The notes under the pieces: generated by a model | What the model was told of the DNA's origin: nothing | The model's database searches: none | Seen by the model: only the letters and a program-made list of their open reading frames with translations | Assembly: GCA_023264735.1 (NCBI GenBank) | Contig: JAHFVD010000018.1 | Span: 52,279-116,278 of the forward strand | DNA length: 64,000 nucleotides | Origin: Mycobacterium sp. | GTDB taxonomy: Bacteria; Actinomycetota; Actinomycetes; Mycobacteriales; Mycobacteriaceae | Direction of reading: 5' to 3' | Position numbers and translations under genes: made by a program | Part shown: positions 20,001 to 36,181 of the stretch, piece after piece | Layout of the letters: every line of letters starts with the position of its first letter | How positions within the stretch are numbered: the stretch's first letter is position 1

Positions 20001-20005
20001 CTGGA

Positions 20006-20796: not shown

Positions 20797-20821
20797 ATAT
20801 GTATTGCAAACCAATACATAT
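20797..20821. promoter_or_regulatory. 25-bp palindrome, candidate TetR operator
   Basis: Perfect 10-bp arms ATATGTATTG (20797-20806) and CAATACATAT (20812-20821) around the 5-nt spacer CAAAC. It lies between the divergent dienelactone-hydrolase-like and TetR genes and is the typical size of a TetR operator. A weaker repeat, AGTGTAT/ATACACT (20841-20847 and 20863-20869), follows and shares the GTAT core. Confidence 0.65.
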
Positions 20822-20877
20822 ACATCGTGTTGCGCATCGTAGTGTATTGGATTAGGGCGTGCATACACTGGCTGCAA

Positions 20878-21510
20878 ATGGAGCTCGGACCACTCTTCCC
20901 GTACACCCCGCCGGCACCCCCGGAGCCGTCCAGTGAGGAACGGATTCGGGATGCTGCGCTGAGGAGCTTCGCGAACCACGGCGTCGCCGCCACCTCGATG
21001 CGGATGATCGCCGATGCTGCTGGCGTATCGCTCGGCTTGGTCCAGCACTACTTCAAGACGAAGGCTGATCTGGTCAACACAGTCGACCGCTACGTGTTAC
21101 AGGTCATCAGCGAGGCCCTGAGGGCCGCGGCGACGCCGGGTGCACCCGCAGAGGCGTTGGAAGAGGCCGGCAAACGGATGACGAAGTTGACGATCGATCA
21201 TCCTCTGGTCATCAACTACCTTGCCCGCGCGTTGTGCGAGGGCGGCGAGATCGGCTCGGTGGTGTTTGACGGATTGGTAACTATTAGCACGGCCCAAGGG
21301 GACCACTTCCGTGAACAGGGCTTGATACGGGAGAACCTTGATCCGTTGTGGGCCGTGTTGAACCCGTTGATCTTGCGCGTCGGCGCGTTCATCCTCCGCC
21401 CGCACATCGAGCGCCAACTTGGCGAGCCGTTCTTCACAGCTACCCAATTGGAACGTTGGGATGATGCAGTCACCAAGGTGCTGCAAGAAGGACAATTCCG
21501 CGACCGCTGA
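20878..21510 (+). CDS. TetR-family transcriptional regulator
   Basis: A 210-residue regulator with the TetR N-terminal DNA-binding domain: EERIRDAALRSFANHGV, then the helix-turn-helix TSMRMIADAAGVSLGLVQHYF at about residues 36-56 and KTKADLV. The C-terminal ligand-binding domain is divergent and gives no clue to the effector. ATG 20878 is chosen because the preceding open frame from GTG 20827 overlaps the operator-like repeats and does not look coding. The divergent hydrolase gene and the 25-bp palindrome between them suggest auto-regulation and control of that gene. Confidence 0.9.
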   Translation: MELGPLFPYTPPAPPEPSSEERIRDAALRSFANHGVAATSMRMIADAAGVSLGLVQHYFKTKADLVNTVDRYVLQVISEALRAAATPGAPAEALEEAGKRMTKLTIDHPLVINYLARALCEGGEIGSVVFDGLVTISTAQGDHFREQGLIRENLDPLWAVLNPLILRVGAFILRPHIERQLGEPFFTATQLERWDDAVTKVLQEGQFRDR

Positions 21511-21764
21511 AGATCCTGCAGGAACTTCATCGGCAAGCGTTGCAGCCTTGCGGCAGAATAACTTCCGCAGATGTTGGGATGTCGGCCGAATAGATCAGAT
21601 CGGTTTGCGGTGAAGCAAAGCGCAACAGTGCCGCCTCGTGACACGTTTGGCAGTGCAGAGCGGAGTCGGGGGTGATGGATCGTTGCCGGCATACGGATTT
21701 ACTCGTTCTGGCCGTTCGGCTGGCACACGCGGTCCCGACCTCCACCCAAGCAGACGAAGCCCAC

Positions 21765-23600
21765 TCAACGTCTGTGGTCAGTACATCTCGTCGGCCGGGT
21801 CGCTTCCAGGGCTCGGATCAGGCTGGCCGAATCCCACGGTCCGCGATGGCGAATGCCGTTGACGAAGAACGTCGGCGTCGCGTTGAGATCCATCAACTCG
21901 GCGTCCTGAGCGTCGTCATCGACCCGGTGTAGCACCCGCGGCGAGTGCAGGTCTTCGTCGAATTGGGTTATGTCACAGCCGACTTGGTCGGCGTAGCGGT
22001 AGATGTGCTGCCATTCCAGGTAGTCCTGGAACTCGAACATCATCGTTCCCATCTCGAAGAACTTGCCCTGCAGTGCGGCAGCTTCGCTGGCCCGCGCGGC
22101 GTCCGTAGCCCTCGGGTGCACCCGCTCCAGCGGCAGATGCCGCCACACGTAACGCAATTGGTCACCGAAGTGGGCGCGGACTTCGTCGATCCCGCCGGTG
22201 GCGCGGCTGCAGAACGGGCATTCGTAGTCGCCGTATTCGACCAGGGTCAGCGGCGCATCGACCGGCCCACGGATGTGATCGCGGTCCGGATTGATATCGC
22301 GGACCAGCTTGAGCCCCACCGCGACCGGCGGGCTGAATCGATCGGTGAGCCGGAAGACCGCCCACCCCAACGTGAATGCGATGACTGATGCCGCCAGAAC
22401 ACCGACGCGAGCCATATCGGCCGAGTGTGGGTCGGTGATCGCCAGGTCGACGATGAACAGCGCGATCGTGAATCCGATCCCGGACAGCGCCGCGCCGCCG
22501 GCGATCCGCCGCAACGTCAGCCCCGGCGAGAGCCGGCCGAGCCCGGTGCTCTGCACGAGCCAGGTTGCCCCGGTGATGCCGATCAGCTTGCCAATCACCA
22601 GACCGGCCACCACACCCCACGTCAGCGGTGACCGCATGGCGGCCATCACGGTGTCGGCGTCTAGTCGCACACCGGCATTGGCCATTGCGAACAGCGGCAG
22701 CACCCCGAAGGACACGTACGGCCCGAACCCGGTGACCAACCGCTCGTTGATCGAGATCGAGTCGCGGAGGCTGCGGGTGGCCGCCCGGGCGTACTCCGAG
22801 TTCGGCGACTGTCGAAACGCGCGGATGACGTCGACTGCCGCCTCCACCCGCTGGCGCTCGGGCGTAAACACCGGGATCACCAGTGCCACCGCCACGCCGG
22901 CGAGCGTGGGGTGCACGCCACCGTTGAACAGCGCCAACCACAGGGCAACGGCCAGAACGCAATACGTCACGCCGCGCATGACCTCGGGTAGGTAGCGCAC
23001 GCCAATCAGGGCGGCCACCAAGACGACAGCGATTAGCAGCGGTACGATCCGGACCTGCTCCGAATAGAACAGGGCGATGGCGGCCAGCGCCCCGACGTCG
23101 TCGACGACAGCCAACGTCAGCAGGAAGGTCCGCAGCCGGGCCGGGTACTTGGGTGCGATGATCGCCAGCGCGCCGACCAGGAACGCGGTGTCGGTGGAGA
23201 TGACCACTCCCCACGCGCTGGCATCGTCGCCGGATGGGTTGAACAGCAGGAAGATCACCGCGGGCAGGATCAGCCCGGCGAGCGCAGCGACCACCGGCAC
23301 CAGCGCCCGGGAGCGCTCCGTGAGTTCCCCGATGGTGAACTGGGCCTTGACTTCCAGTCCCACGATGAAGAAGAAGAACGCCATCAGTGCGTCGTTGACG
23401 ATCGCCTTGACCGTCAGCGCGCCGTGGTAATTGCCGAAGCTCAACCCGACGTGCGTTTCCCAGAACTCGGAATAGGTGTGCGCCCAAGGCGAGTTCGCCC
23501 ACAGTATGGCCACGACGGTGAAGATCAGCAGTAGTGCTGCGGCGGCGTTCTCGCCGAAACGCTTCGCTGTCGGGTCGCGACCCAGCCGGCTGCCTCTCAC
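21765..23600 (-). CDS. nhaA: NhaA sodium/proton antiporter fused to a DsbA-like thioredoxin domain
   Basis: About 611 residues. Residues 1-400 are an NhaA-type antiporter with about 12 helices; the paired transport-site aspartates are seen in TLAVVDDVGALAA, and the GLEVK and NGGVHPTLAGV blocks are present. Residues about 430-600 form a thioredoxin-fold domain of the DsbA/FrnE type with the CPFC redox motif (YGDYECPFC) and the cis-Pro segment ATPTFFVNG. Twelve helices would put this domain in the cytosol. GTG 23600 is chosen because it overlaps the GH76 stop as GTGA, the usual coupling pattern; an upstream ATG at 23636 would overlap further. Confidence 0.9.
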   Translation of the reverse strand: MRGSRLGRDPTAKRFGENAAAALLLIFTVVAILWANSPWAHTYSEFWETHVGLSFGNYHGALTVKAIVNDALMAFFFFIVGLEVKAQFTIGELTERSRALVPVVAALAGLILPAVIFLLFNPSGDDASAWGVVISTDTAFLVGALAIIAPKYPARLRTFLLTLAVVDDVGALAAIALFYSEQVRIVPLLIAVVLVAALIGVRYLPEVMRGVTYCVLAVALWLALFNGGVHPTLAGVAVALVIPVFTPERQRVEAAVDVIRAFRQSPNSEYARAATRSLRDSISINERLVTGFGPYVSFGVLPLFAMANAGVRLDADTVMAAMRSPLTWGVVAGLVIGKLIGITGATWLVQSTGLGRLSPGLTLRRIAGGAALSGIGFTIALFIVDLAITDPHSADMARVGVLAASVIAFTLGWAVFRLTDRFSPPVAVGLKLVRDINPDRDHIRGPVDAPLTLVEYGDYECPFCSRATGGIDEVRAHFGDQLRYVWRHLPLERVHPRATDAARASEAAALQGKFFEMGTMMFEFQDYLEWQHIYRYADQVGCDITQFDEDLHSPRVLHRVDDDAQDAELMDLNATPTFFVNGIRHRGPWDSASLIRALEATRPTRCTDHRR

Positions 23601-24697
23601 GCTGTCACCGTATGTGCAGCCTCCATCAACATCCAACCCGACAGCTGCACCGAGAGATCGCGCTCGGGTGTCTGCGACGAGTTGACCGCACCCTCGACGA
23701 ACTGCGCCTGTCCACCACCGGTCGTCGGGATCTCGGCGGTGCTGTCCCAGGACGGCCCGAACAATGGCAGCCCGTCCACACTTTGGCGGTTGTCCCAGGC
23801 GGCGCCGGCCGAGGCAAGCACGATCCCGCGGGCGGTATCCCTGGCCGCGGTGTCTTCGGCGGACTGCCCGGGCAGGTCGGTCGCCGCGAGCGCCAGATAC
23901 CGGGCGGTGATCCCGGAGAACAGCCCGCCATCTCCGCCGCCTGCCCCGTTCAGAATTCCGCCGGGCGCCATGCGTTCGCCGATCGCCGCGACCAGCCGGC
24001 GGACCCGGGCCGGGTGCCGATTGTCACGGGTGCGTACCGCCAGCTCGGTCTCCAATCCCAATACGACCCCCTGGCAGTACGTGTACTGCGCGCGGACCAG
24101 TGAACCGCCCACGATGCCGTCGAACACCAAGTGGGTCTCGGGATCGATCAACGTTTCGTCGATCCAGTCGGCCATCTGCTGGGCCCGTCGCAACCGGTCG
24201 TCATAGCGGGCCAGGAAGATCCCGGCGGGACCGTTGGCCGGCGCGTTGAAGAACTGATCCTGTTTACGCCAAGGGATTCCGCCGCCGTCCTCAGGCACCC
24301 ACGACTTGACGAACTGTTCGCAGAGGGTGGCCAGGGCGCGCGGGCGATCGACGCCCGCCACGCGCCCCGCACGCTCCAAGGCCAGTGCCAGCCAGGCCAT
24401 ATCGTCGTAATAGCTGTTGGTCCAGCGGCCGTTGTTGCGCAGCCGGTGACCACGGATCTGCCGTTTGATCCTGCCCAGCCGGTCGGGCTGCGGATCGCGC
24501 AGCTGCGCGTCGATCAGGCAGTCCAACAGGTGCGCCTGCCACCAGTAGTGCCAAGTTCCGAACCACCGATCACCGCGGGCGGGCGGCCAGCTGACGACGC
24601 CGAGCTGTGTTCCCGGTAGATTCCAGAGCGTGCGCAGATGGCGCTTCGCGATCGCGGATTCGGCACTGGCAGCTCGGTTGGCCCACAGCTGGTCCAT
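23597..24697 (-). CDS. Glycoside hydrolase family 76 protein (Rv0365c-like)
   Basis: A 366-residue protein resembling GH76 alpha-1,6-mannanases. The neighbouring catalytic aspartates typical of the family are seen in NSYYDDMAWLALALE (Asp98, Asp99), and the (alpha/alpha)6 toroid pattern is visible (FNAPANGPAGIFLAR, RAQYTYCQGVVLGLE). There is no signal peptide, so it would act inside the cell on mannan-containing lipids or released oligosaccharides. ATG 24697 (MDQLWANRAAS) is preferred to 24739, which would overlap the methyltransferase gene by 28 nt. Confidence 0.85.
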   Translation of the reverse strand: MDQLWANRAASAESAIAKRHLRTLWNLPGTQLGVVSWPPARGDRWFGTWHYWWQAHLLDCLIDAQLRDPQPDRLGRIKRQIRGHRLRNNGRWTNSYYDDMAWLALALERAGRVAGVDRPRALATLCEQFVKSWVPEDGGGIPWRKQDQFFNAPANGPAGIFLARYDDRLRRAQQMADWIDETLIDPETHLVFDGIVGGSLVRAQYTYCQGVVLGLETELAVRTRDNRHPARVRRLVAAIGERMAPGGILNGAGGGDGGLFSGITARYLALAATDLPGQSAEDTAARDTARGIVLASAGAAWDNRQSVDGLPLFGPSWDSTAEIPTTGGGQAQFVEGAVNSSQTPERDLSVQLSGWMLMEAAHTVTA

Positions 24698-24711
24698 GCG
24701 CCAATCCTGCC

Positions 24712-25356
24712 CTACCAAGCCTGCGAAAGATCGGCCCATTGTCTGATCCAGGCGTGCATGGCGATGCCGGCGGCGACGGCGGCGTTGACACTGCGGGTCG
24801 AGCCGAATTGCGCGATCGACACCGTGATCGCCGCGCCCTCGCGAGCCGCCTCGGAGATCCCCGGCCCCTCCTGGCCGAACACCATCAGGCAGTCGCGCGG
24901 CAGCGAGGTGGTTTCCACCGGCACCGCGCCGGCGATGTTGTCGACGGCGACGACGGTCAGTCCGGCGCCGGCCGCAAAGGCGAGTAAATCGTCGGTGCTG
25001 TCGTGGTGGGTCAGGCGTTGGTAGCGGTCAGTGACCATGGCCCCGCGGCGGTTCCAGCGCCGGCGTCCGACGATGTGCACGGTGTCGACGGCGAAGGCGT
25101 TGGCCGTGCGAACCACCGCGCCGATGTTGGCGTCGTTGCCGAAGTTCTCGATCGCGATGTGCAGCGCATGCCGGCGGCAATCGATATCGGCGATGATCGC
25201 CTCCCGCGTCCAGTACCGGTAGGCGTCGACGACGTTGCGGGAGTCGCCCTCACGCAACAGGTCTGGGTCATAGCGCGGGTCGTCGGGCAGCTCACCGACC
25301 CAGGGCCCGACGCCAGGGGCGCCGGTGCTCCACTCGGTAGGGCCTGCGTCAGTCAC
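24712..25356 (-). CDS. SPOUT (TrmH-type) RNA 2'-O-methyltransferase (Rv0380c-like)
   Basis: A 214-residue protein with the TrmH-type SPOUT knot: IENFGNDANIGAVVRTANAF (motif 1 with the conserved Asn and Arg), LMVFGQEGPGIS (motif 2, SAM site) and GSTRSVNAAVAAGIAMH (motif 3). It should methylate a ribose in tRNA or rRNA; which one is not evident. The start overlaps the stop of the upstream lipoprotein gene by 4 nt, and GH76 and NhaA follow closely, so four genes may share a transcript. Confidence 0.9.
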   Translation of the reverse strand: MTDAGPTEWSTGAPGVGPWVGELPDDPRYDPDLLREGDSRNVVDAYRYWTREAIIADIDCRRHALHIAIENFGNDANIGAVVRTANAFAVDTVHIVGRRRWNRRGAMVTDRYQRLTHHDSTDDLLAFAAGAGLTVVAVDNIAGAVPVETTSLPRDCLMVFGQEGPGISEAAREGAAITVSIAQFGSTRSVNAAVAAGIAMHAWIRQWADLSQAW

Positions 25357-25712
25357 GGGTCACCCAGCTCGGTGGCTTCGACCGGGTGGGCAAGAGTGCC
25401 GTATAGGCCGAATGGGACGTGTTGGGGTTTGGCGCGGGATGCCGCAGGGTCCGCCGGCGCAGCATCGATGTCGACGGGGACGAAATCACCATTCCGTCGG
25501 AAATCAGCAACCGAGACGTTCCAGCCCAGCAGTGCCAACGACGCCCCGATGCGGGCCTGAGCCGCTCCGTAACTGGATTTGCTGGACGAAGGTGAGCACG
25601 CCGCGGCGAAGATCACACAGACAACTGCCAGCGAAGCCGCTGTCGGGTGAGCGAATTTTCGTCCTTGAACAGCCGACTGGAGAGATCGCAACGCCGGTGC
25701 GATACAGGTCAC
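25353..25712 (-). CDS. Small lipoprotein (Rv0381c position)
   Basis: A 119-residue protein with an N-terminal hydrophobic segment ending in the lipobox-like AAAC (Cys39, followed by SPSSSKSS), so probably an exported lipoprotein with a mature part of about 80 residues. The mature part has no recognisable motif. The GTG start has an AAAGGG site upstream. It overlaps the methyltransferase by 4 nt. Its place corresponds to Rv0381c, which I remember as clearly longer, so this may be a shortened relative or a different gene. Confidence 0.6.
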   Translation of the reverse strand: MTCIAPALRSLQSAVQGRKFAHPTAASLAVVCVIFAAACSPSSSKSSYGAAQARIGASLALLGWNVSVADFRRNGDFVPVDIDAAPADPAASRAKPQHVPFGLYGTLAHPVEATELGDP

Positions 25713-26077
25713 CCAACGCCCTTTCTGACCCCTAGCTCATGCTCCGGACGTACCATCCGGCTTTTCGCGCGCCCGCAATAACAAATCGGTCTCCAACGAT
25801 GACGAGTGTAGGGTCTCCCGTTCAGTCAACAGCGGCGCCGCCCTTGACCTGGAATGTTGTGCGCACAGGTGTTCGCGGAGACCGTATTTTCAGCCGCTAT
25901 TCACCATCGCGTGCGACTGCTACCCCCCGGTAACCAGGGCTTTTCCAGCTAACGGCTGGAGTCTTTGCGCCCTTCGGCGGGATACTGATATTTGCAAGTT
26001 CGAATAAATAGCGCCCGCACAACCCCGGTGCCCGCTGCGGACACCCTATCCGCAAGGCGCCCGATAGATGGGAAACG
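25713..26077. other. 365-bp intergenic region upstream of the three-gene c-di-GMP operon
   Basis: No convincing reading frame on either strand. It must hold divergent promoters for the lipoprotein and for the operon starting at 26078. It contains two short inverted repeats: CCGGA/TCCGG (25743-25747 and 25755-25759) and TCCAGC/GCTGGA (25944-25949 and 25955-25960). AT-rich stretches near 25982-26010 could hold the operon promoter. I see no riboswitch-like structure. Confidence 0.5.
25944..25960. promoter_or_regulatory. Short inverted repeat, possible operator
   Basis: TCCAGC (25944-25949) and GCTGGA (25955-25960) with the spacer TAACG, about 120 bp upstream of the operon start at 26078. Short arms make it a weak candidate. 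Confidence 0.3.
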
Positions 26078-26830
26078 ATGAACGCTTCAGTGCTGGACTT
26101 CCCTGATCAGAAGCTCTACCACCTGCCTGAGACGATTAGCTGGCGCGACACGGATACGGGTTGCACGATCACGTGTGCCCAACCCGACAGCGAACCTGAG
26201 CTATGGGAAGACTACCTGCAGGGAGCCCTCCGCAGCTACGAAAAACACGGAGTCGAAGCCGCACTGGACCTCGAGTCGTTCGCCGACGGCCGCGACACCA
26301 CGCTGTTCTACACCGCCGTCGACGACAACGGCCGGATGCTGGGCGGCCTCCGGGCGAAGGGCCCGTACTTCAGCGCCGACGAATCGCACGCGATCGTCGA
26401 GTGGGAAGGGCAGCCCGGCCAGGAAACAGTCCGCAAGATGATCACCGACCGCCTGCCGTTCGGCGTGGTGGAGATGAAGTCGGCGTGGGTGAGTGACGAC
26501 CCCGCCCGCAGCGGCGAGCTGACCCGCACCTTCGCCCGCACCGCGTTCCCGACCATGGAGCTGTTGGGCGCCCAGTTCATCCTGGCCACCGCCGCTGCCC
26601 ACGTCCTTGATCGGTGGAGCACCTCGGGCGGTGTGGTCGCCACCAAGATTCCGGCCGCGGCCTACCCCAGCGAGCGCTACCGCACCAAGATGATGTGGTG
26701 GGATAGGCGCACCTTCGCCAACCACGCGGAGCCTCGGCAGTTGGCCAAAATCGTTAAGGAGATGCGCATGCTGGCGACGATCTCTGAGGAATTCAGCGAC
26801 TTCGGCCTGCAGTACGGGAGTGGCATGTGA
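26078..26830 (+). CDS. Conserved protein of unknown function, possibly GNAT-like (first gene of c-di-GMP operon)
   Basis: A 250-residue cytosolic protein. No firm family assignment. The central part (LFYTAVDDNGRMLGGLRAKGPY, later ELTRTFARTAFPTMELLGAQ) has the strand, helix and turn order seen in GNAT and autoinducer-synthase-like acyltransferases, and a basic/aromatic block follows (ERYRTKMMWWDRR). This is a suggestion only. The stop overlaps the GTG of the next gene by 4 nt, so it is made together with an E1-like/nitroreductase fusion and a GGDEF/EAL enzyme. From memory it corresponds to the gene next to Rv1355c in M. tuberculosis. Confidence 0.65.
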   Translation: MNASVLDFPDQKLYHLPETISWRDTDTGCTITCAQPDSEPELWEDYLQGALRSYEKHGVEAALDLESFADGRDTTLFYTAVDDNGRMLGGLRAKGPYFSADESHAIVEWEGQPGQETVRKMITDRLPFGVVEMKSAWVSDDPARSGELTRTFARTAFPTMELLGAQFILATAAAHVLDRWSTSGGVVATKIPAAAYPSERYRTKMMWWDRRTFANHAEPRQLAKIVKEMRMLATISEEFSDFGLQYGSGM

Positions 26831-28968
26831 GTTTCGACGTCTCCGCCGATTCCGGCGCGGACGCGTACAAGGCGCGAGTCTTGCTCAGCGACGATCCCCA
26901 AGACGACCCCATAATGGCCCGACTGCGCAATGACTCGCGCACCGAATTTTTCGACCGCTCAGCGGAGTTCGGCTCGGCGCTGCGCGCCCTTCGGCCCGAG
27001 GTCGAACCCGAGCTGCTCGCCGAGCCGATGCACTGGGCCTACTACCCGTGGCGGCATGCGGTGGTGGCGGTGCCGGGCCCGCGCACATTTGCGCGCCTGC
27101 GGCTCGACCGCAACCGCAATATGATCACCCTCGGGGAGCAGCGGCGACTGGCCGGACTCGCCATCGGTGTGGTGGGTCTGTCGGTGGGCCACGCGATCGC
27201 CCACACGCTGGCCGCCCAGGGCTTGTGCGGCGAGCTGCGACTGGCCGATTTCGACGATTTGGAACTGTCCAACCTCAACCGAGTGCCCGCGACGGTGTTC
27301 GACATCGGCGTGAACAAGGCCGTCGTGGCGGCCCGGCGGATCGCCGAGCTCGACCCGTACCTGCGGGTCCAAGCGATGACCGACGGTCTGACCATCGACA
27401 CAATGGGAACGTTCCTCGACGGCCTCGACATCGTGGTCGAGGAGTGCGACTCCCTCGATATCAAGGCGGCGGTGCGCGAGGCGGCACGGGCGCGCCGCAT
27501 TCCGGTACTGATGGCCAGCAGTGACCGCGGCCTGATCGACGTGGAGCGATACGACATCGAGCCGGAACGGCCCATCCTGCACGGGCTGCTCGGCGATATC
27601 GGCGTCAGTGAGTTGGCGGGCCTGAGCAGCACTGACAAGGTGCCCCACGTGCTGCGGATCATCGACGCGGGCCGGTTGTCCGATCGCGGCGCCGCCTCGC
27701 TGGTCGAGGTCGGCCGCACGTTGTCGACGTGGCCGCAGCTCGCCGGGGACATCGCCGTCGGTGCGGCCACCGTCGCCGAGGCGGTGCGCAGGATCGGACT
27801 GGGCGAGCGCCTGTCGTCCGGCCGGGTCCGTATCGACGTCACCCGCGCACTCGACGGACTGGAAGAGCCCGCACTACCGAGCCCGCCGGCCCCGTCGGCT
27901 TCCGCCGAGCCGACCGGGCAGTTGGACAGCGCCCCTGCGGAAGCCGTGGCAGCGGCCGCGCGGCGCGCCCCGTCCGGGGGGAACATGCAGCCGTGGCGCA
28001 TCGTGTCGCACAATAACTCGGTGATCGTCGAGCTGGACCCGAAGTACACCTCGACGATGGACGTCGCCTACCGGGCCAGCGCCGTTGCGATCGGGGCTGC
28101 GACGTTCAACGCGCGGGTGGCCGCCTCCGCACTCGGCGTGCTGGGTCCGGTCACGATTACCGAGGACGACGAGCGGATCCCGCTGCGAGCGGTCGTCAAG
28201 TTGGCGGCGGGCCGCGACGACACGCTGGCCGCGCTGTACGGACCGATGCTGGACCGGGGGACGAACCGGCACCGCGGCACACCGTCGCAACTGACGACGG
28301 CGACCGTCGCCGATCTGACAGCGGCGGCGCGGGTCGAGGGCAGCACGCTGCGGCTGCTAACGATCCGCACCGACATCGAACGGGCGGCGGCGATCCTGGC
28401 CGCCACCGACCGGATCCGCTATCTGCAGCCACGCCTGCACGCCGAGATGATCTCGGAGCTGCGCTGGCCCGGTGACGATAGTTCCGACGGCCTGGACATC
28501 CGCAGCCTTGAGCTCGCCGCCGCCGATATGGCCACGCTGGACATCTTGCGCCGCGGTGACGTGATGGCCCGCCTGGCGCAATGGCAGGCGGGCGAGGCGC
28601 TAGGTCAGGACGTCACCGAACGGGTGCTGTCCAGCTCGGCATTGGGCGTCGTCACCATCGCCGGCCACACCCTGACCGACTACGCCCGCGCAGGTGCTGC
28701 GGTGGAAGCGGTCTGGGTCGCCGCCGAGCAGCACGGCATGGGTGTCCAGCCCGTCTCGCCGGTGTTCCTGTACGCCCACGGCGATCGAGACCTCGACGAG
28801 CTCGCTGCCGAGCACGTCGCCGAATTACGCGACTTGCAAGGTCAGTTCCGCTCACTCACCGGGACCGGCCCGGACGAGGCACAAGCACTCGTGCTCAGGT
28901 TCAGTCACGCCCCTGGCGCATCGGTGCGTAGTAGGCGTCGTGCAGCCAACGGGGGGACACTCGGTTAA
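26827..28968 (+). CDS. E1-like (ThiF/MoeB) adenylation domain fused to a nitroreductase-like domain (Rv1355c-like)
   Basis: A 713-residue two-domain protein. Residues about 90-350 resemble ThiF/MoeB/E1 enzymes: a nucleotide loop GVVGLSVGHA (about 113-122), DFDDLELSNLNR ending near 152, NKAVVAARRI (about 163) and a later EECDS. The Gly loop departs from GxGxxG. Residues about 370-700 resemble nitroreductases, with the FMN-binding start RRAPSGGNMQPWR (about 379-391). H37Rv calls the relative MoeY, but nothing here shows a molybdopterin role. A plausible job is adenylating and then reducing or oxidising a small substrate or peptide end. Coupled by overlap to both neighbours. Confidence 0.8.
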   Translation: MSFDVSADSGADAYKARVLLSDDPQDDPIMARLRNDSRTEFFDRSAEFGSALRALRPEVEPELLAEPMHWAYYPWRHAVVAVPGPRTFARLRLDRNRNMITLGEQRRLAGLAIGVVGLSVGHAIAHTLAAQGLCGELRLADFDDLELSNLNRVPATVFDIGVNKAVVAARRIAELDPYLRVQAMTDGLTIDTMGTFLDGLDIVVEECDSLDIKAAVREAARARRIPVLMASSDRGLIDVERYDIEPERPILHGLLGDIGVSELAGLSSTDKVPHVLRIIDAGRLSDRGAASLVEVGRTLSTWPQLAGDIAVGAATVAEAVRRIGLGERLSSGRVRIDVTRALDGLEEPALPSPPAPSASAEPTGQLDSAPAEAVAAAARRAPSGGNMQPWRIVSHNNSVIVELDPKYTSTMDVAYRASAVAIGAATFNARVAASALGVLGPVTITEDDERIPLRAVVKLAAGRDDTLAALYGPMLDRGTNRHRGTPSQLTTATVADLTAAARVEGSTLRLLTIRTDIERAAAILAATDRIRYLQPRLHAEMISELRWPGDDSSDGLDIRSLELAAADMATLDILRRGDVMARLAQWQAGEALGQDVTERVLSSSALGVVTIAGHTLTDYARAGAAVEAVWVAAEQHGMGVQPVSPVFLYAHGDRDLDELAAEHVAELRDLQGQFRSLTGTGPDEAQALVLRFSHAPGASVRSRRRAANGGTLG

Positions 28969-30818
28969 TGGCGCTCGACACCCTCGTCACGAATGTGGCC
29001 ACCAAGCTGATGGCGGCCACCTCTGCTACTTCGGCGCAGGTGAGCCAGGACGTGCTGGCCGACCTTGTCGCGTCCTTCGGTGTCGACTTCAGTTTCCTGC
29101 GCTACAACGATCACGCGATCAGGGCCACGAAGCTAATCGCTGAATGGCCGCCGCGCCCCGACGTCCCCGATCCCGACCCGCTCGGCATCGTCTACTTCGC
29201 CGACGCCGATCCGATCTTTGCGGCCGCCGAGACCGCCAAGGAACCGGTCTTCTTCTCCCCCGAACCGATCGCGGACGACTCCGACGACTACCAGCGCCGG
29301 GTCCAGGAGGCTAGCGGGGTCGCCCTGCCGTCATTGGCCTCGGTGCCGCTGCTGTCCGGAGACGTCACCACCGGGGCCTTGGGGTTCATCAAGATCGGCA
29401 TCAAGGACTGGTCACCGGAGGAGCTGAACGCGCTGCTGGCGATCGCGTCGTTGTTCGCCCAGGTGCAGGCGCGGGTGGTCGCCGAAGAAGAGCTGCGTTA
29501 CCTCGCGGAGCATGACGACCTGACCGGACTGCACAACCGCCGGGCACTGCTCGCGTACCTCGACGACAGGCTGCGGGCCGGCAAGGCTGGGCCGGTGTCG
29601 GCGCTGTTCCTCGACCTCGACCGGCTCAAGGCCATCAACGACTATCTGGGTCACCACGCTGGCGACTGGTTCATCCAGGCGTTCGCCGAACGCCTGCGCG
29701 AGGAGACCGGCGAAGGCGATTTGATCGCCCGCCTCGGTGGTGACGAGTTCGTCGTCATCCCGGCGGCACCGATGGACGCCGACGCCGCCCTGGCGCTGGC
29801 TCACCGACTGCAGGCCGTGCTGCGCGACCGGGTGACGATCGGTGGCGAGATGCTCACCCGCACCGTCAGTGCCGGTGTCGCACTGGGAGTTCCGGGCAGG
29901 GACACGACGTCGGATCTGCTGCGACGCGCCGACCAGGCGGTGCTGAACGCCAAGAACGCCGGCGGCAACAAGATCGCGGTGTTCACCGACGAGATGTCAC
30001 TGACGAGCGAGTTCCGCAACGACATCGAGCTGCATCTACAGAACGTGATCGACGCCGGGACGCTGATTCTGCACTACCTGCCCGAAGTCGACATGCGCAC
30101 CGGGGAGATCCTGGCGACCGAGGCGCTGGTGCGCTGGCAGCACCCGACCCGCGGCCTGCTACTGCCGGATTCGTTCATCAATGTTGCCGAATCAATCAAC
30201 CTGGCAGGCGAATTGGGACGCTGGGTGATGCGCGCCGCCTGCTCGGAATTCAGCGGCTGGCAGGCCCGCGGCATCGCCAAGAACGCGGTTATCCGGATCA
30301 ACGTCTCCCCGGTGCAGCTGGTCACCGACGGATTCGTCGAGTCGGTGGCCGATACGATCGCCGAGTTCAACCTCGATGCCAAATCAGTGTGCCTGGAGAT
30401 CACCGAAAGCGTTGTGGTGCAGGACATCGAGACCACGCGCATCACCCTGGCCGGCCTCAAGGATGTCGGCGTGCAGGTCGCCATCGACGATTTCGGCACC
30501 GGTTACAGCGTGCTGACACATCTGAAATCGCTTCCGGTGGACACCCTCAAGATCGACAAGGGCTTCGTCCTCGATCTCGGCACCAACCCGGAGGACCTGG
30601 CGATCGTGCGCGCGATCATCGCGTTGGCCGAGGCCTTCAACCTCGAGTTGGTGGCCGAGGGTGTCGAGCAACCGAGCGCGGCGGTGACCCTGCTCCAGCA
30701 CGGCTGCCATCGCGCTCAGGGATTCCTGCTGTCCCGCCCGGTGCCAGGCGATGTCATGGCCGAACTGTTCGCCAAAAAGGTTATCCCGGTGGACTTTTCC
30801 GCCCAAGACCGGGGCTGA
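28968..30818 (+). CDS. dcpA: GAF-GGDEF-EAL cyclic-di-GMP synthase/phosphodiesterase
   Basis: A 616-residue cytosolic enzyme: GAF sensor domain (about 20-170), GGDEF domain (about 185-345, motif RLGGDEF near 256) and EAL domain (about 365-605, motif TEALVRW near 384, then DDFGTGYSVL and KIDKGFV). Both active-site motifs are intact. Length and order match the M. smegmatis DcpA and M. tuberculosis Rv1354c enzymes, which are reported to have both activities. The ATG shares one base with the upstream TAA (TAATG), so synthesis is coupled to the E1-like/nitroreductase protein. It converges on the flavoprotein-like gene with 1 nt between stops. Confidence 0.92.
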   Translation: MALDTLVTNVATKLMAATSATSAQVSQDVLADLVASFGVDFSFLRYNDHAIRATKLIAEWPPRPDVPDPDPLGIVYFADADPIFAAAETAKEPVFFSPEPIADDSDDYQRRVQEASGVALPSLASVPLLSGDVTTGALGFIKIGIKDWSPEELNALLAIASLFAQVQARVVAEEELRYLAEHDDLTGLHNRRALLAYLDDRLRAGKAGPVSALFLDLDRLKAINDYLGHHAGDWFIQAFAERLREETGEGDLIARLGGDEFVVIPAAPMDADAALALAHRLQAVLRDRVTIGGEMLTRTVSAGVALGVPGRDTTSDLLRRADQAVLNAKNAGGNKIAVFTDEMSLTSEFRNDIELHLQNVIDAGTLILHYLPEVDMRTGEILATEALVRWQHPTRGLLLPDSFINVAESINLAGELGRWVMRAACSEFSGWQARGIAKNAVIRINVSPVQLVTDGFVESVADTIAEFNLDAKSVCLEITESVVVQDIETTRITLAGLKDVGVQVAIDDFGTGYSVLTHLKSLPVDTLKIDKGFVLDLGTNPEDLAIVRAIIALAEAFNLELVAEGVEQPSAAVTLLQHGCHRAQGFLLSRPVPGDVMAELFAKKVIPVDFSAQDRG

Positions 30819-30819
30819 G

Positions 30820-31599
30820 TCAGGAGCTGTACAGCAGTTCGACGAGACCGAACCGGCTGGCGGTTCGACTCACGACGGCGACTTGCGATGCGCCGCTCAG
30901 CAACCCGGACTGAACCGGCCAATCGGCAGCGTCGGGCACAGGTCCGATAGACAGCGCGACGCCCACAATCGCGCGCACCAACCGAGTTCCGTCTGGTGTG
31001 GACAACGCCGCGCCGGCGACGCGCCCGTCCTCGAAGACCAGCCGCTCCAGCGCGGTGTCCGCCTCGTCCAGGAGGCCGCGCTCATCGGCCTGCCCGCGCA
31101 GCCATTCCGCCAGTTCCAAACCAGGGCGGTCGGTTTCGGGCCGGTAGTCGCCGAGCACGGCCGCCCGGATCGTCTCGCCACCGGCACGCAGTGACGTCAT
31201 GTTGTCGGGTATCTGGCTGTAGATGACGCCGAAGGGCGACGCGGCGCAGCGCGCGGAGAAGTCGCGCAGCCGCGAGCCGAAGAACGGCTCGATCGTGGCC
31301 CTGCGGTCCTTGCTCACGACAACCGGTTTGGCGTGAACGACCGCCAGTTCCAGGCCCCGATCCGCCGCTGGCTCCAGATCGTCGGTCATCGACTGCAAGT
31401 ACGCGGCGGTATCGGGATCGGAAGTCTGCGAAGACAACTCCGCATCGGCGAACTCGACATCGAGGTCGAGGTCCGTGCACCAGATGGCATGAGCCAGCAC
31501 GCCGGGACCCACACCAGCACAGATCACGTCGACGACGTCATCCCAGTGCAATTGCGAAGCCTCGACGAGCTCCTCGTCTGTGCTCACCATCGTCTTCAT
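30820..31599 (-). CDS. Short degenerate FAD-dependent oxidoreductase-like protein
   Basis: A 259-residue protein whose two ends resemble FAD-binding fumarate reductase/ketosteroid dehydrogenase proteins: WDDVVDVICAGVGPGV at the N-terminus (dinucleotide loop with its last Gly changed) and LERLVFEDGRVAGAAL near residue 190. The family is normally about 500 residues, so much of the catalytic domain is missing. It may be a non-catalytic relative or a decayed gene that still has an open frame. ATG 31599 lies 2 nt after the pyrE stop; TTG 31605 is an alternative. Confidence 0.6.
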   Translation of the reverse strand: MKTMVSTDEELVEASQLHWDDVVDVICAGVGPGVLAHAIWCTDLDLDVEFADAELSSQTSDPDTAAYLQSMTDDLEPAADRGLELAVVHAKPVVVSKDRRATIEPFFGSRLRDFSARCAASPFGVIYSQIPDNMTSLRAGGETIRAAVLGDYRPETDRPGLELAEWLRGQADERGLLDEADTALERLVFEDGRVAGAALSTPDGTRLVRAIVGVALSIGPVPDAADWPVQSGLLSGASQVAVVSRTASRFGLVELLYSS

Positions 31600-31601
31600 C
31601 G

Positions 31602-32162
31602 TCAAGACGTCGGCAGGCCGAGGTCGGCCAGACCCAGCACGCTGCGGTAGGGCACACCCTCAGCCTCGATCGCCTCGGCCGCCCCGGTCGCCCGGTCCAC
31701 CACGGTCGCGACACCGACGACCGTGGCGCCCGCATCCCGCACCGCGCGAACAGCGGTCAGCGCCGAACCTCCGGTCGTACTGGTGTCCTCGACCACCAGA
31801 ACCCGCTGACCAACTACATCGGCACCTTCGATAAGCCGTTGCATCCCATGGCTTTTCAGCGCCTTACGGACCACGAAGGCGTCGATCGGGCGGCCGGGCG
31901 CATGCATGATCGCGCCAGCCACCGGGTCAGCCCCCATGGTCAGTCCGCCGACCGCCGCATAGTCCCAGTCAGCGGTCAGCTCACGCATCAGCCGGCCGAT
32001 CAGCGGTGCGGCCTTGTGGTGCAGCGTGGCCCGACGCAGGTCGACGTAATAGTCGGCTTCCTTGCCGGAGGACAGGGTGACACGGCCGAACACCACCGAC
32101 AACTGGCGGACCAGCTCGGCGAGTTCGGCGCGTTCAGCGGCGTTGAGTTCAGGTGCGCCCAC
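31602..32162 (-). CDS. pyrE: Orotate phosphoribosyltransferase
   Basis: Joins orotate to PRPP to give orotidine 5'-monophosphate in pyrimidine synthesis. The 186-residue length is right for the family. The PRPP motif is VLVVEDTSTTGGSAL (about residues 116-130) and the flexible-loop lysines are in VVRKALKSHGM. It corresponds to Rv0382c (also called umpA) and lies upstream of the flavoprotein-like gene with 2 nt between, so they are likely cotranscribed. Confidence 0.96.
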   Translation of the reverse strand: MGAPELNAAERAELAELVRQLSVVFGRVTLSSGKEADYYVDLRRATLHHKAAPLIGRLMRELTADWDYAAVGGLTMGADPVAGAIMHAPGRPIDAFVVRKALKSHGMQRLIEGADVVGQRVLVVEDTSTTGGSALTAVRAVRDAGATVVGVATVVDRATGAAEAIEAEGVPYRSVLGLADLGLPTS

Positions 32163-32234
32163 GGCTACGTCCTCTTCCGTTGTTGATTGCGCGGTCCACC
32201 CGCGCGGGACGAGACACGCCGAGAACCTACCGGC

Positions 32235-33008
32235 TCAGCGCTGGTAGTTGGGAGCCTGTGTACCGTTCCGCGGCTGCTGCGGGCGCAGCGGCGGCGGAAC
32301 CTCGGCCCGTCCCGGCGGCAGCTCGCGGCGGCCGGCGGGCGCCAAGGGGCGACCCGGGGAGGCATTGCGGCGCCCCGCGGACGGCGGCAGTGCCGGTTGC
32401 GCGGTCGGAGGCAGCACCCGCAGCAGGTCGTTGAACTGCCGCACGGTGCGCAGACCCTCGTCCCACTGGGCGCGGGTCGAGGAGATCGGCATGGATACCA
32501 GGGTCCAGTTCTGTTCGTTCCACATGATTTCGGCGCAGTCCGGCGCGGTGTGGGCGAAGGTGACCATCCGGCGGTCGCAGGCCCGGCGGGCGGCGTCGAG
32601 GTTGGTTGAGTAGACCATCCGCGGGCCAATGGCGCCCAGCAGCCAGATATCGCTCTCACGCGGCTCGGCGATGCCCTTGAGCCGCAGGTCCATCACGACG
32701 TTGGTGCCGACCTTGCGGTGCAGCGCGATCACGGTGGCGACGTCCTCGAGGTCGAAGATGTACACCGCCTCACCGCGGATCTGACCGAGCACCACATTGC
32801 GGGCGGTGACATCGCCGACAGTCGACATCACACCGCGCTTCCAGCGGTCGATGATCTCGGCGGACTCGGGTTCGAAGTCGAACCCGTGCGACCGCGCCCA
32901 GGACTTACGGCGGCGGCCCAAGCCACGTCGACGGCCGATGTCGACGTACAACAGCACCGCCGCACCCACGAAGCAGAGCGCGGACAGCGTGAACCAGAAC
33001 GGAACCAT
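32235..33008 (-). CDS. ttfA: TtfA, trehalose monomycolate transport factor (Rv0383c-like)
   Basis: A 257-residue protein: one N-terminal transmembrane helix (about 4-24, WFTLSALCFVGAAVLLYVDI), a basic stretch, a cytosolic beta-rich domain (about 45-190, with SHGFDFEPESAEIIDRW) and a disordered Pro/Arg-rich tail. In mycobacteria this protein is reported to work with MmpL3 in moving trehalose monomycolate to the periplasm and to be essential. The assignment rests on overall match and on its place between pyrE and clpB, as in M. tuberculosis. Start ATG is at 33008. Confidence 0.88.
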   Translation of the reverse strand: MVPFWFTLSALCFVGAAVLLYVDIGRRRGLGRRRKSWARSHGFDFEPESAEIIDRWKRGVMSTVGDVTARNVVLGQIRGEAVYIFDLEDVATVIALHRKVGTNVVMDLRLKGIAEPRESDIWLLGAIGPRMVYSTNLDAARRACDRRMVTFAHTAPDCAEIMWNEQNWTLVSMPISSTRAQWDEGLRTVRQFNDLLRVLPPTAQPALPPSAGRRNASPGRPLAPAGRRELPPGRAEVPPPLRPQQPRNGTQAPNYQR

Positions 33009-33084
33009 TAGACGTAGCGTATCTGTTCACCCGCCCGAAGCGAGAACTCCAGCAGGTCACAAGCCCGTCACATAGCCTCCCGCC

Positions 33085-33900
33085 ATGGCCTACGACGACT
33101 ACCAGCTGATTCGCATCACCGTCGATGGGGGGATCTGCCGAGCCACGCTCGACAATCCGCCGATCAACCTCCTCGACGTCCCCCTGCTCACCGAGATCGA
33201 CCGCCTCACGCGGGAGATCACGGCAGACGACCAGGTCCGGGTGCTGATAGTCGACTCCGCCGACCCCGAGATCTTCATCGCCCACGCCGATGTGGCGTTG
33301 ATCCTGGACTTGCCTGCCGACGACATCGGCCTGCACGAGGAGCTGTCGCTCTTCCACGCGACGACTGAGCTGATCCGCACGCTGCCGAAACCCACGATCG
33401 CCGTCATCGAGGGTGTCTGTCGCGGCGGTGGCTGCGAGTTCGCGATGGCGTTCGACATGCGCTACGCCGCGCTGGGCGCCACGGTTCTCGGTCATCCGGA
33501 GGTGGCGGTCGGGATCATCCCCGGCGGGGGCGGCACCCAGCGGCTGCCTCGGCTGGTCGGCAGGGGACGTGCCCTGGAAACGATCCTGGGCGGGATGGAC
33601 GTCGACGCCGCGACGGCCGAAGCCTGGGGATACGTCGATCGAGCTTTGCCGCCCGAGAAGCTGCGGCGGTTCGTCGACAAGCTGGCCGCCCGCATCGCGG
33701 GGTACGCCCCGACGGCGATCACCGCCGCCAAACGTGCGGTCGACGCCGCGTTGGACACCGGCGTCGATCGGGAGACCGGCTTGCTCATCGAGGACCAGCT
33801 GTTTCGCGAGACCCTCGCCCAGCCGGCCGCGCGTCAGCTGCTCCAGGCGGTCATTGACGCCGGCGCGCAGACCCGCGAATTCGAACTGGGCACCGGTTAG
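33085..33900 (+). CDS. Enoyl-CoA hydratase/isomerase family protein
   Basis: A 271-residue crotonase-fold protein. The CoA-binding and oxyanion-hole segment reads FIAHADVALILDL and KPTIAVIEGVCRGGGCEFAMAFDMRYA; the conserved Glu of the first catalytic site is in GGCEFA and the second lies in GHPEVAVGIIPGGGGTQRL. Both acids normally used for hydration are present, so it should hydrate or isomerise an enoyl-CoA. Substrate unknown. It converges with the alpha/beta hydrolase gene, overlapping its stop by 4 nt on the other strand. Confidence 0.9.
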   Translation: MAYDDYQLIRITVDGGICRATLDNPPINLLDVPLLTEIDRLTREITADDQVRVLIVDSADPEIFIAHADVALILDLPADDIGLHEELSLFHATTELIRTLPKPTIAVIEGVCRGGGCEFAMAFDMRYAALGATVLGHPEVAVGIIPGGGGTQRLPRLVGRGRALETILGGMDVDAATAEAWGYVDRALPPEKLRRFVDKLAARIAGYAPTAITAAKRAVDAALDTGVDRETGLLIEDQLFRETLAQPAARQLLQAVIDAGAQTREFELGTG

Positions 33901-35297
33901 TCCCCAGCCGGGAACATCGCCGCGGCGAGTTCGAGAATCTCCGCGCGGTCCGCGGCCAACAGGAAGCCACCGCCGATCGCGTCGTCCAGCGCCGCGGTGA
34001 ACCGCTCCAGGTATTCGGCCCGGCCGCCGGGATACAGCCGGGCCAGTGTTTCGGCGTCGAACGGCTCGCCCGAGCCGAAGATCGCGAGCAGCACGTTGTC
34101 GTCGGCGCTGGCGCCGGAGGTGCGGGCGGTCGGGACGTCCACCCACGGTGTTCGCAGGCCGCCGGTCGCGACACCACCGGCATCGACGGCGATCGCGGGC
34201 GGGTCGGTGCCGGTCAAATCCATCTGCGGCGCACTCGGCGCAGGCCGCCCGGTGCGCACCCAATCGTGCAGCCCGGCGATCGCGGCCTGCAGGACGTAGT
34301 GGTGCTGCGGGGCGAAGTTGATGAAGTGCAGCAGCTGCTGGCCCATCAGGTCGTTGGTCGGCGCGTAGGCCGCGACGATCTGATCCAGCGGTACCGCTCC
34401 GTTGTCGATGAATCCCACCCGGATCGTGTAGTTGTCGGCGTGCGCCGAGCCGGGGATCTCCCAGACCCGAAGGTGCTCGGTGTCCGGCACGCGGGCGTGG
34501 ACGTAGCCGAGCAGTCGCGCACCCAGCAGGTCGGTTTCGGTGATCACGGCCAGCACCGGCACCCGCAGGTCGGCGCGGAACGGCACCGGCCGGGTGTGGA
34601 ACTCACCTGTCTCGTCGAGCAGGGACGTGCCGTCCAGGGGTGCCGCCGACCCGAACCGGGAGTGGATCAGGAAGCCGTCGTAGACACCGGCGGCCGGATC
34701 GACCTCGTTGACATAGGTGGTGAGGAAGGTGGCCGACTGCGACTCCCCCGCCGCCAGCACGAATTGCGGTGCGAGACCGTCGATCACGCCGGCGCGCACA
34801 CCTCGGCCGACCTGGGTGAAGATGTCGTAGGCGAAGGCGTCGCCCGGGTGATTCAGCCCTGAATATCGTTGGGGATCCAGGGTTTTCAGTGACGCATCGC
34901 CAACCAGGCTGAGGCCGCCCTCAATCCCGACTCGCTGGGCGGAGACGACGACGTAGGCGTACCCGGCCCTGGCGATCTCGCGGTGGGCCATGAACCAGAC
35001 CGCTGCCGCGTCGATCCCGCCGCTGACGTTGAGCCATTCGACGATCACCGTGCCGTTCCAGGCGGCCCCGTCCAGCGGGCGCAGGACGACGAGGCGGGTG
35101 GTGTAGGACGCGGTCTGGTCCGGCCGGCAGGCAGGAGCGGAGCGACCCGGGGATTGGTCGTGCGCGTAGGACGTCGCGGTGCCCGCGACGAAATACTCGT
35201 CGGCGCGGTAGCCCACGGTGGCCAGGTCGTAGGCCCCGATCAGGAGGTTCGGTTTCCCGGGGACGGCGGTGATGACGGGATCAGTGGCCAGCACCAT
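33897..35297 (-). CDS. Alpha/beta hydrolase-domain protein (ABhydrolase_10 type)
   Basis: A 466-residue cytosolic protein of the long alpha/beta hydrolase-domain family found in actinobacteria. A nucleophile-elbow-like motif GESQSAT (about residue 200) follows the strand FVLAAGE; a later Asp is in VITETDLLG and the His candidate in GSAHADNY. No signal peptide. The substrate is unknown. ATG 35297 shares one base with the stop of the upstream monooxygenase remnant, suggesting that the two were once coupled. Confidence 0.78.
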   Translation of the reverse strand: MVLATDPVITAVPGKPNLLIGAYDLATVGYRADEYFVAGTATSYAHDQSPGRSAPACRPDQTASYTTRLVVLRPLDGAAWNGTVIVEWLNVSGGIDAAAVWFMAHREIARAGYAYVVVSAQRVGIEGGLSLVGDASLKTLDPQRYSGLNHPGDAFAYDIFTQVGRGVRAGVIDGLAPQFVLAAGESQSATFLTTYVNEVDPAAGVYDGFLIHSRFGSAAPLDGTSLLDETGEFHTRPVPFRADLRVPVLAVITETDLLGARLLGYVHARVPDTEHLRVWEIPGSAHADNYTIRVGFIDNGAVPLDQIVAAYAPTNDLMGQQLLHFINFAPQHHYVLQAAIAGLHDWVRTGRPAPSAPQMDLTGTDPPAIAVDAGGVATGGLRTPWVDVPTARTSGASADDNVLLAIFGSGEPFDAETLARLYPGGRAEYLERFTAALDDAIGGGFLLAADRAEILELAAAMFPAGD

Positions 35298-35870
35298 CAA
35301 TCAATAGCAGAGGCGCCAAGCGGATAGTCGGGATATCCCATGGCGTCGTACAACCGCACGCCCTTGTTGTTGAGCCGGGCGATGGCCCTGGTCAAGCCGC
35401 CCGGAAGTGCCGACAATGTGCGGCCGGCGTTGACCAGCGCCCACACCCCCAGCTCCGATCGCGGCACCAGCGTCTTGGCGACCGTGCGGGCGAACGCGCG
35501 GCTGTGCCGCACCGGGTCGGCCATCACCCGCTCGTAGGCGGCGAACGCCGCGACATGATCACCGCCGCCTCGTTCGAGTTCACCGGCCAGCACGTAGGCG
35601 CCCAGCCAGCGGTCGACGACAGGGTTCAGGCCGGCGACGCCGAGCGCAGGAGCAGCCGCTGCCGGGCGTCGTCGCGATGGTGGTAGTCCAGCGGCGCCTC
35701 GGGGCGGAACAGGAACACCGCGCGGGCGTCGTCGAGGTGGTCGGCGGTGTAGATCATCGCCCACCGGCGGATATCGACGAAGTTCGTCGATTCACCATCG
35801 CGCGCAAGCTCTTTAGGCACCGACAGCACCGCCAGATAGCCCCGAGGAAACGGGTGTGCAACCAACCCCG
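35297..35870 (-). pseudogene. FAD-dependent monooxygenase remnant (5' truncated, internally deleted, frameshifted)
   Basis: Two pieces in different frames. From about 35870 down to about 35630 the reading is GLVAHPFPRGYLAVLSVP to LDYHHRDDARQRLLLRSA, like the middle of a TetX/PHBH-type FAD monooxygenase. In the next frame, from about 35640 to 35297, DRWLGAYVLAGELERGGGDH continues as a C-terminal domain ending PDYPLGASAID. The FAD-binding GDA block that should lie between them is missing, and so is the whole N-terminal Rossmann part. At least three lesions are needed, so it is not functional. Confidence 0.75.
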
Positions 35871-35879
35871 CGAGCCCGC

Positions 35880-36181
35880 GCGAGCTACTCGAGGGCTACT
35901 TCGATTTCCTCTTTCGGCACCGCTCCGATCTGGTGCTGGCGGTTACCGAGCTGACCACGCTGGCCGATCTCGGCTTGGTGGACAAGATATTGGCGTGGCA
36001 GAAACGGCTGTGCGCGTTGGTGTTCGGCTCGCGCCCGACGCTGGAGCAGTCCACCCGCGGTGTGATCGCGTTCGGCGGAATGCAGGACTGCAGTCTGCAG
36101 TTTCCCGATAGCCCACCCAAACGGCTACGGCAAGCCACAATTGCGGGTGCGCTGGCCGCACTGGGTCTGCCCGACGCCTAA
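35880..36181 (+). pseudogene. TetR regulator remnant (DNA-binding half deleted)
   Basis: The plus-strand frame reads RELLEGYFDFLFRHRSDLVL onwards to ALAALGLPDA, a typical C-terminal ligand-binding half of a TetR regulator of about 100 residues. No helix-turn-helix lies upstream; the sequence runs straight into the monooxygenase remnant on the opposite strand. The original pair was evidently divergent, and one deletion took the 5' halves of both and the promoter between them. Confidence 0.7.

Follow-up and report, generated by a model that had tools for sequence, protein, structure and literature searches.

Why should genes that are predicted to make an acylated derivative of tryptophan overlap with the gene of an enzyme for cyclic di-GMP (c-di-GMP)? 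The question is raised by three genes in a stretch of 64,000 nucleotides (nt) of DNA from Mycobacterium sp. (family Mycobacteriaceae; contig JAHFVD010000018.1, positions 52,279 to 116,278), hereafter called the window. They are orthologues of trzA, trzS and dcpA, and the pathway of the first two has already been published for the orthologues, in a paper of December 2025 that also remarks on the c-di-GMP genes adjoining trzAS in M. tuberculosis (PMC12856293). As the trz genes in the genomes surveyed are nearly always close to a gene for a c-di-GMP enzyme, the trz product is likely a signal read by that enzyme. In the trzA-trzS-dcpA operon, judging from sequence comparisons, it may well be bound by the GAF domain of DcpA and so adjust c-di-GMP; we put the probability of this reading at about 0.5.

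The three reading frames lie on the forward strand, encode 250, 713 and 616 amino acids (aa) and start with ATG, GTG and ATG, respectively. Their overlaps of 4 nt (GTGA) and 1 nt (TAATG) are those that the preliminary description of this DNA had given. The features of the locus are as follows, with the basis of each in brackets.

26078..26830, +, trzA orthologue, predicted acyl-CoA-dependent amino-acid N-acyltransferase with a GNAT/acyl-homoserine-lactone (AHL)-synthase-like fold (structure model, PMC12856293 orthologue)
26827..26830, +, trzA/trzS overlap of 4 nt, trzA stop with the GTG start of trzS (sequence)
26827..28968, +, trzS orthologue, ThiF + Nitroreductase (Pfam, NCBIfam NF005901)
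27106..27522, +, ThiF domain, TrzS residues 94-232 (Pfam)
27448..27450, +, Asp208 in an EECD motif, likely counterpart of M. smegmatis TrzS Asp217 (position; mapping inferred)
27940..28947, +, flavin-dependent oxidase (FDO) domain, TrzS residue 372 to about 707 (Pfam, NCBIfam, alignment)
28417..28419, +, Arg531, likely counterpart of M. smegmatis TrzS Arg540 (alignment; mapping inferred)
28968..28968, +, trzS/dcpA overlap of 1 nt (TAATG), trzS stop with the dcpA start (sequence)
28968..30818, +, dcpA orthologue, GAF-GGDEF-EAL, predicted diguanylate cyclase and phosphodiesterase (Pfam, motifs)
29040..29462, +, GAF domain, DcpA residues 25-165 (Pfam, model, fold search)
29217..29219, +, Phe84 of GAF (GAF alignment)
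29289..29291, +, Tyr108 of GAF, in a model block of mean pLDDT 58 (GAF alignment, model)
29505..29972, +, GGDEF domain with an intact GGDEF motif at residues 257-261 (Pfam, motif)
30036..30740, +, EAL domain, EAL motif at residues 385-387; DDFG, KIDKGF and AEGVE present (Pfam, motif)

Identity and predicted chemistry of TrzA and TrzS

The second protein had been taken for a ThiF fold joined to a flavin redox fold, and this assignment holds. Pfam finds ThiF and Nitroreductase domains in it, and its match to the NCBIfam equivalog NF005901 ('Rv1355c family') scores 1013.5 bits against a cut-off of 476 and spans residues 11-708 of 713. Purified TrzS from M. smegmatis catalyses an ATP-dependent ring closure and, after it, a desaturation with O2, which results in N-acyl tryptazolones; the cyclised product is absent with its D217A mutant, and its R540A mutant gives much less tryptazolone while the cyclised intermediate builds up (PMC12856293). 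D208 and R531 of the window protein likely match these two residues, as a single constant numbering offset of 9 relates both pairs. Arg531 is identical in 110/110 aligned FDO domains; sequences containing stops were excluded from this alignment as well as from the near-duplicate-filtered set and the set of GAF copies used below. By this correspondence, the ThiF domain of the window TrzS would close the oxazolone ring with ATP and its flavin domain would desaturate it with O2.

Neither Pfam (above cut-off) nor NCBIfam gives a match to TrzA, and its nearest named homologues are from Mycolicibacterium. Sequence searches against solved structures returned nothing useful either for TrzA (best E 1.4) or for the GAF domain of DcpA (best E 4.3), and folds were therefore compared instead. 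The AlphaFold2 model of TrzA (pLDDT 91.8) has a GNAT fold, and its best solved matches in Foldseek are the AHL synthase BjaI (5w8a, E 5.9e-7) and the N-acyl amino acid synthase FeeM (2g0b, E 7.7e-7), in agreement with the earlier suspicion that the 250-aa protein is GNAT-like or autoinducer-synthase-like. Its M. tuberculosis orthologue, Rv1356c, N-acylates L-tryptophan in vitro (PMC12856293), and the same reaction is predicted here. Hence, the idea that the first two genes make a small molecule is true of the orthologues, and the window TrzA and TrzS are predicted to make an N-acyl tryptazolone from tryptophan and acyl-CoA.

Linkage of trz genes to c-di-GMP genes

In a survey of 151 genomes of the family, NF005901 matched above its cut-off in 64 genomes and 72 rows, with later fragments of the same genes excluded. 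The surroundings of all 72 rows were searched with ThiF, FDO, TrzA, GAF, GGDEF and EAL models built from those loci; for genome G000, the window served as the surroundings. A GGDEF/EAL gene was found within 10 kb in 71 of the 72 (all but L046) and within 5 kb in 69, the largest distance being 6.3 kb; for points chosen at random, the expectation is about 4%. As a control, sub-threshold ThiF loci without TrzA had such a gene in 0/9 cases (about 8 kb on each side, except for one side of L121 with 1.8 kb). This control excludes L063, which has TrzA and GGDEF beside it, and L061, which is half of a split cluster.

A second threshold (a ThiF score of 430 bits or more, or a TrzA no farther than 6 kb away), which was fixed after the locus table had been seen, selects a set of 72 that differs in its loci from the first and also gives 71/72. 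The single miss, L061, is at a contig end, and its other half, L060, has dcpA. By gene order, 33 of these 72 loci have the strict trzA-trzS-dcpA arrangement, 3 have the same arrangement without the flavin domain, 7 have dcpA nearby in another order, 28 have GGDEF/EAL genes without GAF, and 1 has none. In the linkage survey for which the preliminary description had called, the association with c-di-GMP genes is thus strong, but strict linkage of the three genes is found in only 33/72 loci. A single operon in all cases was thus rejected. The idea that dcpA goes with trzS alone, or with trzA alone, was also rejected, as each pairing occurs with the third gene apart. In the stretches of L088-L091 (genus g16), TrzA, ThiF and DcpA are present and the flavin oxidase domain was not found, so that the pathway there would end at the saturated oxazolone unless an oxidase encoded elsewhere acts.

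GGDEF domains occur in 99 of the 151 genomes, namely in 65/65 genomes with trz (second threshold) vs 34/86 without, a comparison that ignores shared ancestry. The highest per-genome GGDEF counts are to be read as at least 22. Thirteen of the 65 trz-bearing genomes have exactly one GGDEF match, and it is the trz locus that holds it; a single GGDEF match is also found in nine genomes without trz. In L077, L078 and L092 (genus g28), the single GGDEF match is in a dcpA-like gene, and there are no trz genes in the fetched stretch. Some neighbouring gene families there are common to trz-bearing relatives, and the EAL part of L092 lies about 2 kb apart. These three loci are possible natural controls for the absence of trzAS.

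In 28 of the 72 family loci, a different c-di-GMP gene stands in place of dcpA. In genera g4, g9, g11, g17 and g19, and in the g6 clusters that are devoid of the flavin domain, the trz genes have as their neighbour the gene of a GGDEF protein with a length of some 400 aa. In most copies, about 5-6 membrane helices are predicted for its N-terminus, which had no Pfam match above cut-off in the copies scanned; a separate EAL gene is often present. A probe made from this membrane domain gave 42 matches in 33/151 genomes, and a comparison of coordinates by hand put 29 of them close to ThiF loci; 2 others adjoin a TrzA that stands alone. The trzA, trzS and cyclase genes of these lineages are mostly on different strands and do not form one operon, yet they are still neighbours. 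Seven g6 genomes contain both the dcpA type and the membrane-cyclase type of arrangement. The membrane domain of about six helices is perhaps a second candidate type of receptor. Examples are found at L036:5716-6936, L041:11010-12212, L035:10426-11688 and L123:7217-8410. An Asp and an Arg near the start of the domain are identical in 30/30 aligned sequences, two of which (L070, L076) may be unrelated.

In searches outside the family, of 346 genomes from the phylum and, at class level, of 66 and 198 genomes, two other classes yielded six TrzS matches of full length, and 6/6 are TrzA-ThiF-FDO fusions beside dcpA, which lies upstream of the fusion in L141, L142 and L149 and downstream of it in L143, L150 and L151. 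Distance alone is no proof of a link, as the partial sub-threshold loci L144 (ThiF only) and L145 (FDO only) also have a GGDEF gene about 6-7 kb off. A collection of named relatives (the best 80 of 349) is not independent, as its genomes are partly the same as those of the family and class sets. A GGDEF/EAL gene is in the stretch in 75 of these 80, as a GAF-type dcpA in 74 and without GAF in one (L183). Among the five misses are L172, a contig of 3.3 kb, and three genomes with trzA directly upstream of dcpA elsewhere (L232-L234); the fifth is discussed below. Where trzS lies apart from the trio, trzA still adjoins dcpA. In the close relatives L073, L074, L194 and L199, the site next to a SpoU methylase gene is the same as in the window and trzA is directly followed by dcpA, and trzS lies about 4-5 kb off, beyond a homologue of the window gene 21765-23636. 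These four loci suggest a move of trzS, either out of the trio or into it.

In summary, chance does not account for the arrangement, which is found again and again in the family and also in other classes. The linkage holds even where the enzyme is of another type, the genes are in another order or on another strand, or genes are fused.

The GAF domain of DcpA

The third protein had been described as a GAF-GGDEF-EAL enzyme that makes and breaks c-di-GMP. The domains and the intact GGDEF and EAL motifs are there, and from these motifs both cyclase and phosphodiesterase activities are predicted. Both activities are reported for the M. smegmatis DcpA (PMC5517500), and the window enzyme would likewise make and break c-di-GMP. 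The model of the GAF domain (pLDDT 90.8) has a clear GAF fold; its Foldseek and VIA match lists contain many kinds of GAF fold and allowed no inference about the ligand.

A comparison of DcpA GAF domains that are linked to trz genes with those that are not shows where the two groups differ. F84 is conserved in 119/123 distinct linked domains vs 4/13 unlinked ones, Y108 in 119/123 vs 3/13, and V126 in 111/123 vs 4/13, whereas R45, P61, P127 and G136 are present in 13/13 unlinked domains. The difference is less sharp at P71, D81 and D40. The 123 distinct sequences represent 129 linked copies, in which second copies at one locus are counted as linked, and with the repeats included the linked counts are 125/129, 125/129 and 116/129 for F84, Y108 and V126, respectively. 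L069, a contig of 3.7 kb, was excluded, L060 was counted as linked, and the contig extends just 1.6 kb upstream of the unlinked copy in L087. With 13 members, the unlinked set is small, and it is in part paralogous; shared ancestry is ignored in this test as well. Judging from the fold, F84 and Y108 belong to the two helices by which the pocket of GAF domains is often capped, and they are candidate residues of a ligand site.

We also compared evolutionary distances. Of 110 loci, 100 had TrzA, and 96 were left after removal of near-duplicates. Within the family, the partial correlation with TrzA distance is 0.36 for GAF, 0.02 for GGDEF and 0.16 for EAL, and GAF ranks highest in 95.5% of 200 subsamples. 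This evidence is no more than suggestive.

Surroundings of the cassette

The genes that flank the cassette are listed below.

24712-25356, -, SpoU-type methylase gene, left flank (open reading frame (ORF) list, Pfam/NCBIfam)
30820-31605, -, right-hand flanking gene, next to dcpA (ORF list)
31602-32162, -, pyrE, right flank beyond 30820-31605 (ORF list, Pfam/NCBIfam)
32235-33008, -, ttfA, right flank beyond pyrE (ORF list, Pfam/NCBIfam)

The gene at 30820-31605 is presumably a homologue of Rv0381c, as it was named in the preliminary description. The cassette had been placed between this gene and pyrE, which proved incorrect, since both sit to the right of dcpA, in that order, and the SpoU methylase gene is on the left. 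Between the methylase gene and trzA there is a 119-aa frame with a lipoprotein-like N-terminus (25353-25712, -), and L194 has a 61% homologue of it. A relative of 30820-31605 (32-37% identity) is present in dcpA stretches in which the SpoU/pyrE flanks were not found (L093, L094, L166, L193, L203, L208, L213, L216, L217, L219, L222, L232-L234). It is a matter of speculation that the cassette entered the window site by recombination between copies of such relatives.

No Rfam match to a regulatory RNA was found at E <= 0.1 across 20000-36000. A consensus scan of 25300-31700, which is a weak type of scan, gave no promoter-like site and 2 terminator-like sites vs 2.6 in shuffled sequences.

Signal, receptor and alternative explanations

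The trz pathway and c-di-GMP turnover very probably form one functional unit, as the linkage to two enzyme architectures, the genomes with a sole GGDEF protein and the fused and reordered loci suggest. Within this unit, the GAF domain would bind the tryptazolone or its acyl-tryptophan precursor, and the membrane domain of about six helices would perhaps bind the ligand in lineages with the other cyclase; these two steps are the least certain of the mechanism. We consider the chance that GAF is the receptor of the trz product to be a little short of even. More tentatively still, N-acyl tryptazolones or acyl-tryptophans might be dedicated signals of Actinomycetota, intracellular or passed from cell to cell, that are read directly by the adjoining c-di-GMP enzymes via a GAF or a membrane domain. 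If true, this would explain what tryptazolones do and, in some species, what the sole c-di-GMP synthase really responds to.

Several findings weigh against the GAF domain as a reader of the trz product. Linkage alone is silent on the direction of control. Tryptazolones were undetected in M. tuberculosis itself (PMC12856293). No c-di-GMP gene lies in the stretch of L046, a TrzS-like fusion that scores above cut-off and lacks TrzA, and M. simulans (L214), the fifth miss of the named collection, has trzAS and no GGDEF match anywhere in its genome. The control of sub-threshold loci is not clean of all links, because L063 in the family, with TrzA, and L144 outside it have GGDEF neighbours, the latter about 6 kb away. 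There are also dcpA genes with no trzAS in the vicinity (13 GAF copies are unlinked; single-GGDEF genomes G051, G084 and G111). Residue Y108 belongs to the poorly modelled stretch of the GAF domain. Outside the family (34 loci), TrzA distance follows GGDEF (0.58) more than GAF (0.33). Finally, PMC8846402, citing Chen 2018, names GDP as the ligand that binds the GAF domain of M. smegmatis DcpA, probably with inhibition of the cyclase.

The GDP report leads to the main rival explanation, in which the control is reversed: GAF reads a nucleotide such as GDP, c-di-GMP regulates TrzA/TrzS or the release of the tryptazolone, and the tryptazolone is an output. The retention of dcpA without trzAS in some genomes is compatible with such an arrangement, and so is the presence of two different N-terminal domains in the linked enzymes, since the common factor is then c-di-GMP and not one receptor domain. 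However, a housekeeping nucleotide sensor would not be expected to conserve two of its GAF positions mainly near trz, nor would its GAF domain in the family be expected to follow TrzA more than GGDEF and EAL do. Furthermore, Pfam and NCBIfam, the only scans made, find no c-di-GMP-binding domain in TrzA or TrzS. We regard reversed control as unlikely. Somewhat more unlikely in our judgement is that the genes are co-regulated neighbours without direct contact, with tryptazolone synthesis and c-di-GMP turnover as separate outputs of a common regulon for stress or stationary phase, whose joint expression keeps them together. The overlapping reading frames permit joint expression at this locus, the weak scans revealed no internal promoter-like site and no known regulatory RNA, and stress-linked expression is discussed in PMC12856293. 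This explanation does not account for the lineages with GGDEF-only cyclases, in which the genes are mostly on different strands yet remain neighbours, or for trzA adjoining dcpA even where trzS lies apart.

A mobile cassette, inherited or transferred as a block without functional need, is very improbable. It would agree with the patchy presence of the genes (65/151 genomes), with their different chromosomal sites in different mycobacteria, and with the relative of the right-flank gene that shares a stretch with dcpA at other sites. However, there are two types of c-di-GMP enzyme, opposite gene orders, fusions and single genomes with both arrangements, and hence the association would have to have arisen repeatedly and independently.

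The reading in which the trz product acts on c-di-GMP turnover bears on what PMC12856293 calls a major unresolved question, the physiological role of oxazolones. A survey of the trz/c-di-GMP linkage was found neither in the literature searched nor in the Results and Discussion of that paper. New here are the general linkage to c-di-GMP enzymes of two types and the trz-associated residues of the GAF domain. The remark on adjacency thus becomes a testable claim that tryptazolones belong with c-di-GMP turnover, because the surveyed pathway rarely lacks a close c-di-GMP enzyme and the sole GGDEF of 13 genomes is at the trz locus. The survey also points to F84 and Y108 as possible residues of the ligand site, and to a second candidate type of receptor.

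Comparison with known systems

The closest relatives are the trzAS genes of M. tuberculosis (Rv1356c-Rv1355c), M. smegmatis and R. jostii RHA1, for which a trzAS deletion strain is available (PMC12856293). They belong to the same family above cut-off, have trzA upstream of trzS and share the catalytic Asp and Arg by position, and a c-di-GMP gene adjoins them in M. tuberculosis too. The window copy differs in its site, between the SpoU methylase gene and pyrE, and in that its product is predicted from sequence. TyzACB of M. tuberculosis and OxzAB of P. rubra combine the same three activities, those of an acyltransferase, a ThiF cyclase and a flavin oxidase; their products are tyrosine-derived, and TyzB and TyzC are separate proteins (PMC12856293, PMC10404671).

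The AHL synthases LuxI and BjaI, together with FeeM, are the closest solved folds to the TrzA model, at an identity of 9-18%, and BjaI uses an acyl-CoA donor. The resemblance is in fold only, as TrzA has no Pfam or NCBIfam match to the LuxI-type autoinducer synthase family at E <= 1. Unlike these enzymes, the orthologues of TrzA have tryptophan as their acyl acceptor and leave ring closure to a separate ThiF enzyme.

RpfF and RpfR are encoded by neighbouring genes, and RpfF is a member of the crotonase family. No crotonase-type, RpfF-like domain was matched by Pfam in TrzA or TrzS at E <= 1, and hence the window locus is not a member of the RpfF-RpfR system. The BDSF signal is bound by the PAS domain of the GGDEF-EAL receptor RpfR (PMC8846402). 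RpfR thus has a PAS sensor with a fatty-acid ligand, the binding of which has been shown, whereas the putative sensor of the window DcpA is a GAF domain. By analogy, RpfF-RpfR is the closest working counterpart of what we propose here: in both, the maker of a small acyl compound would be paired with a cytosolic sensor-GGDEF-EAL protein, and in the window the genes of the two adjoin.

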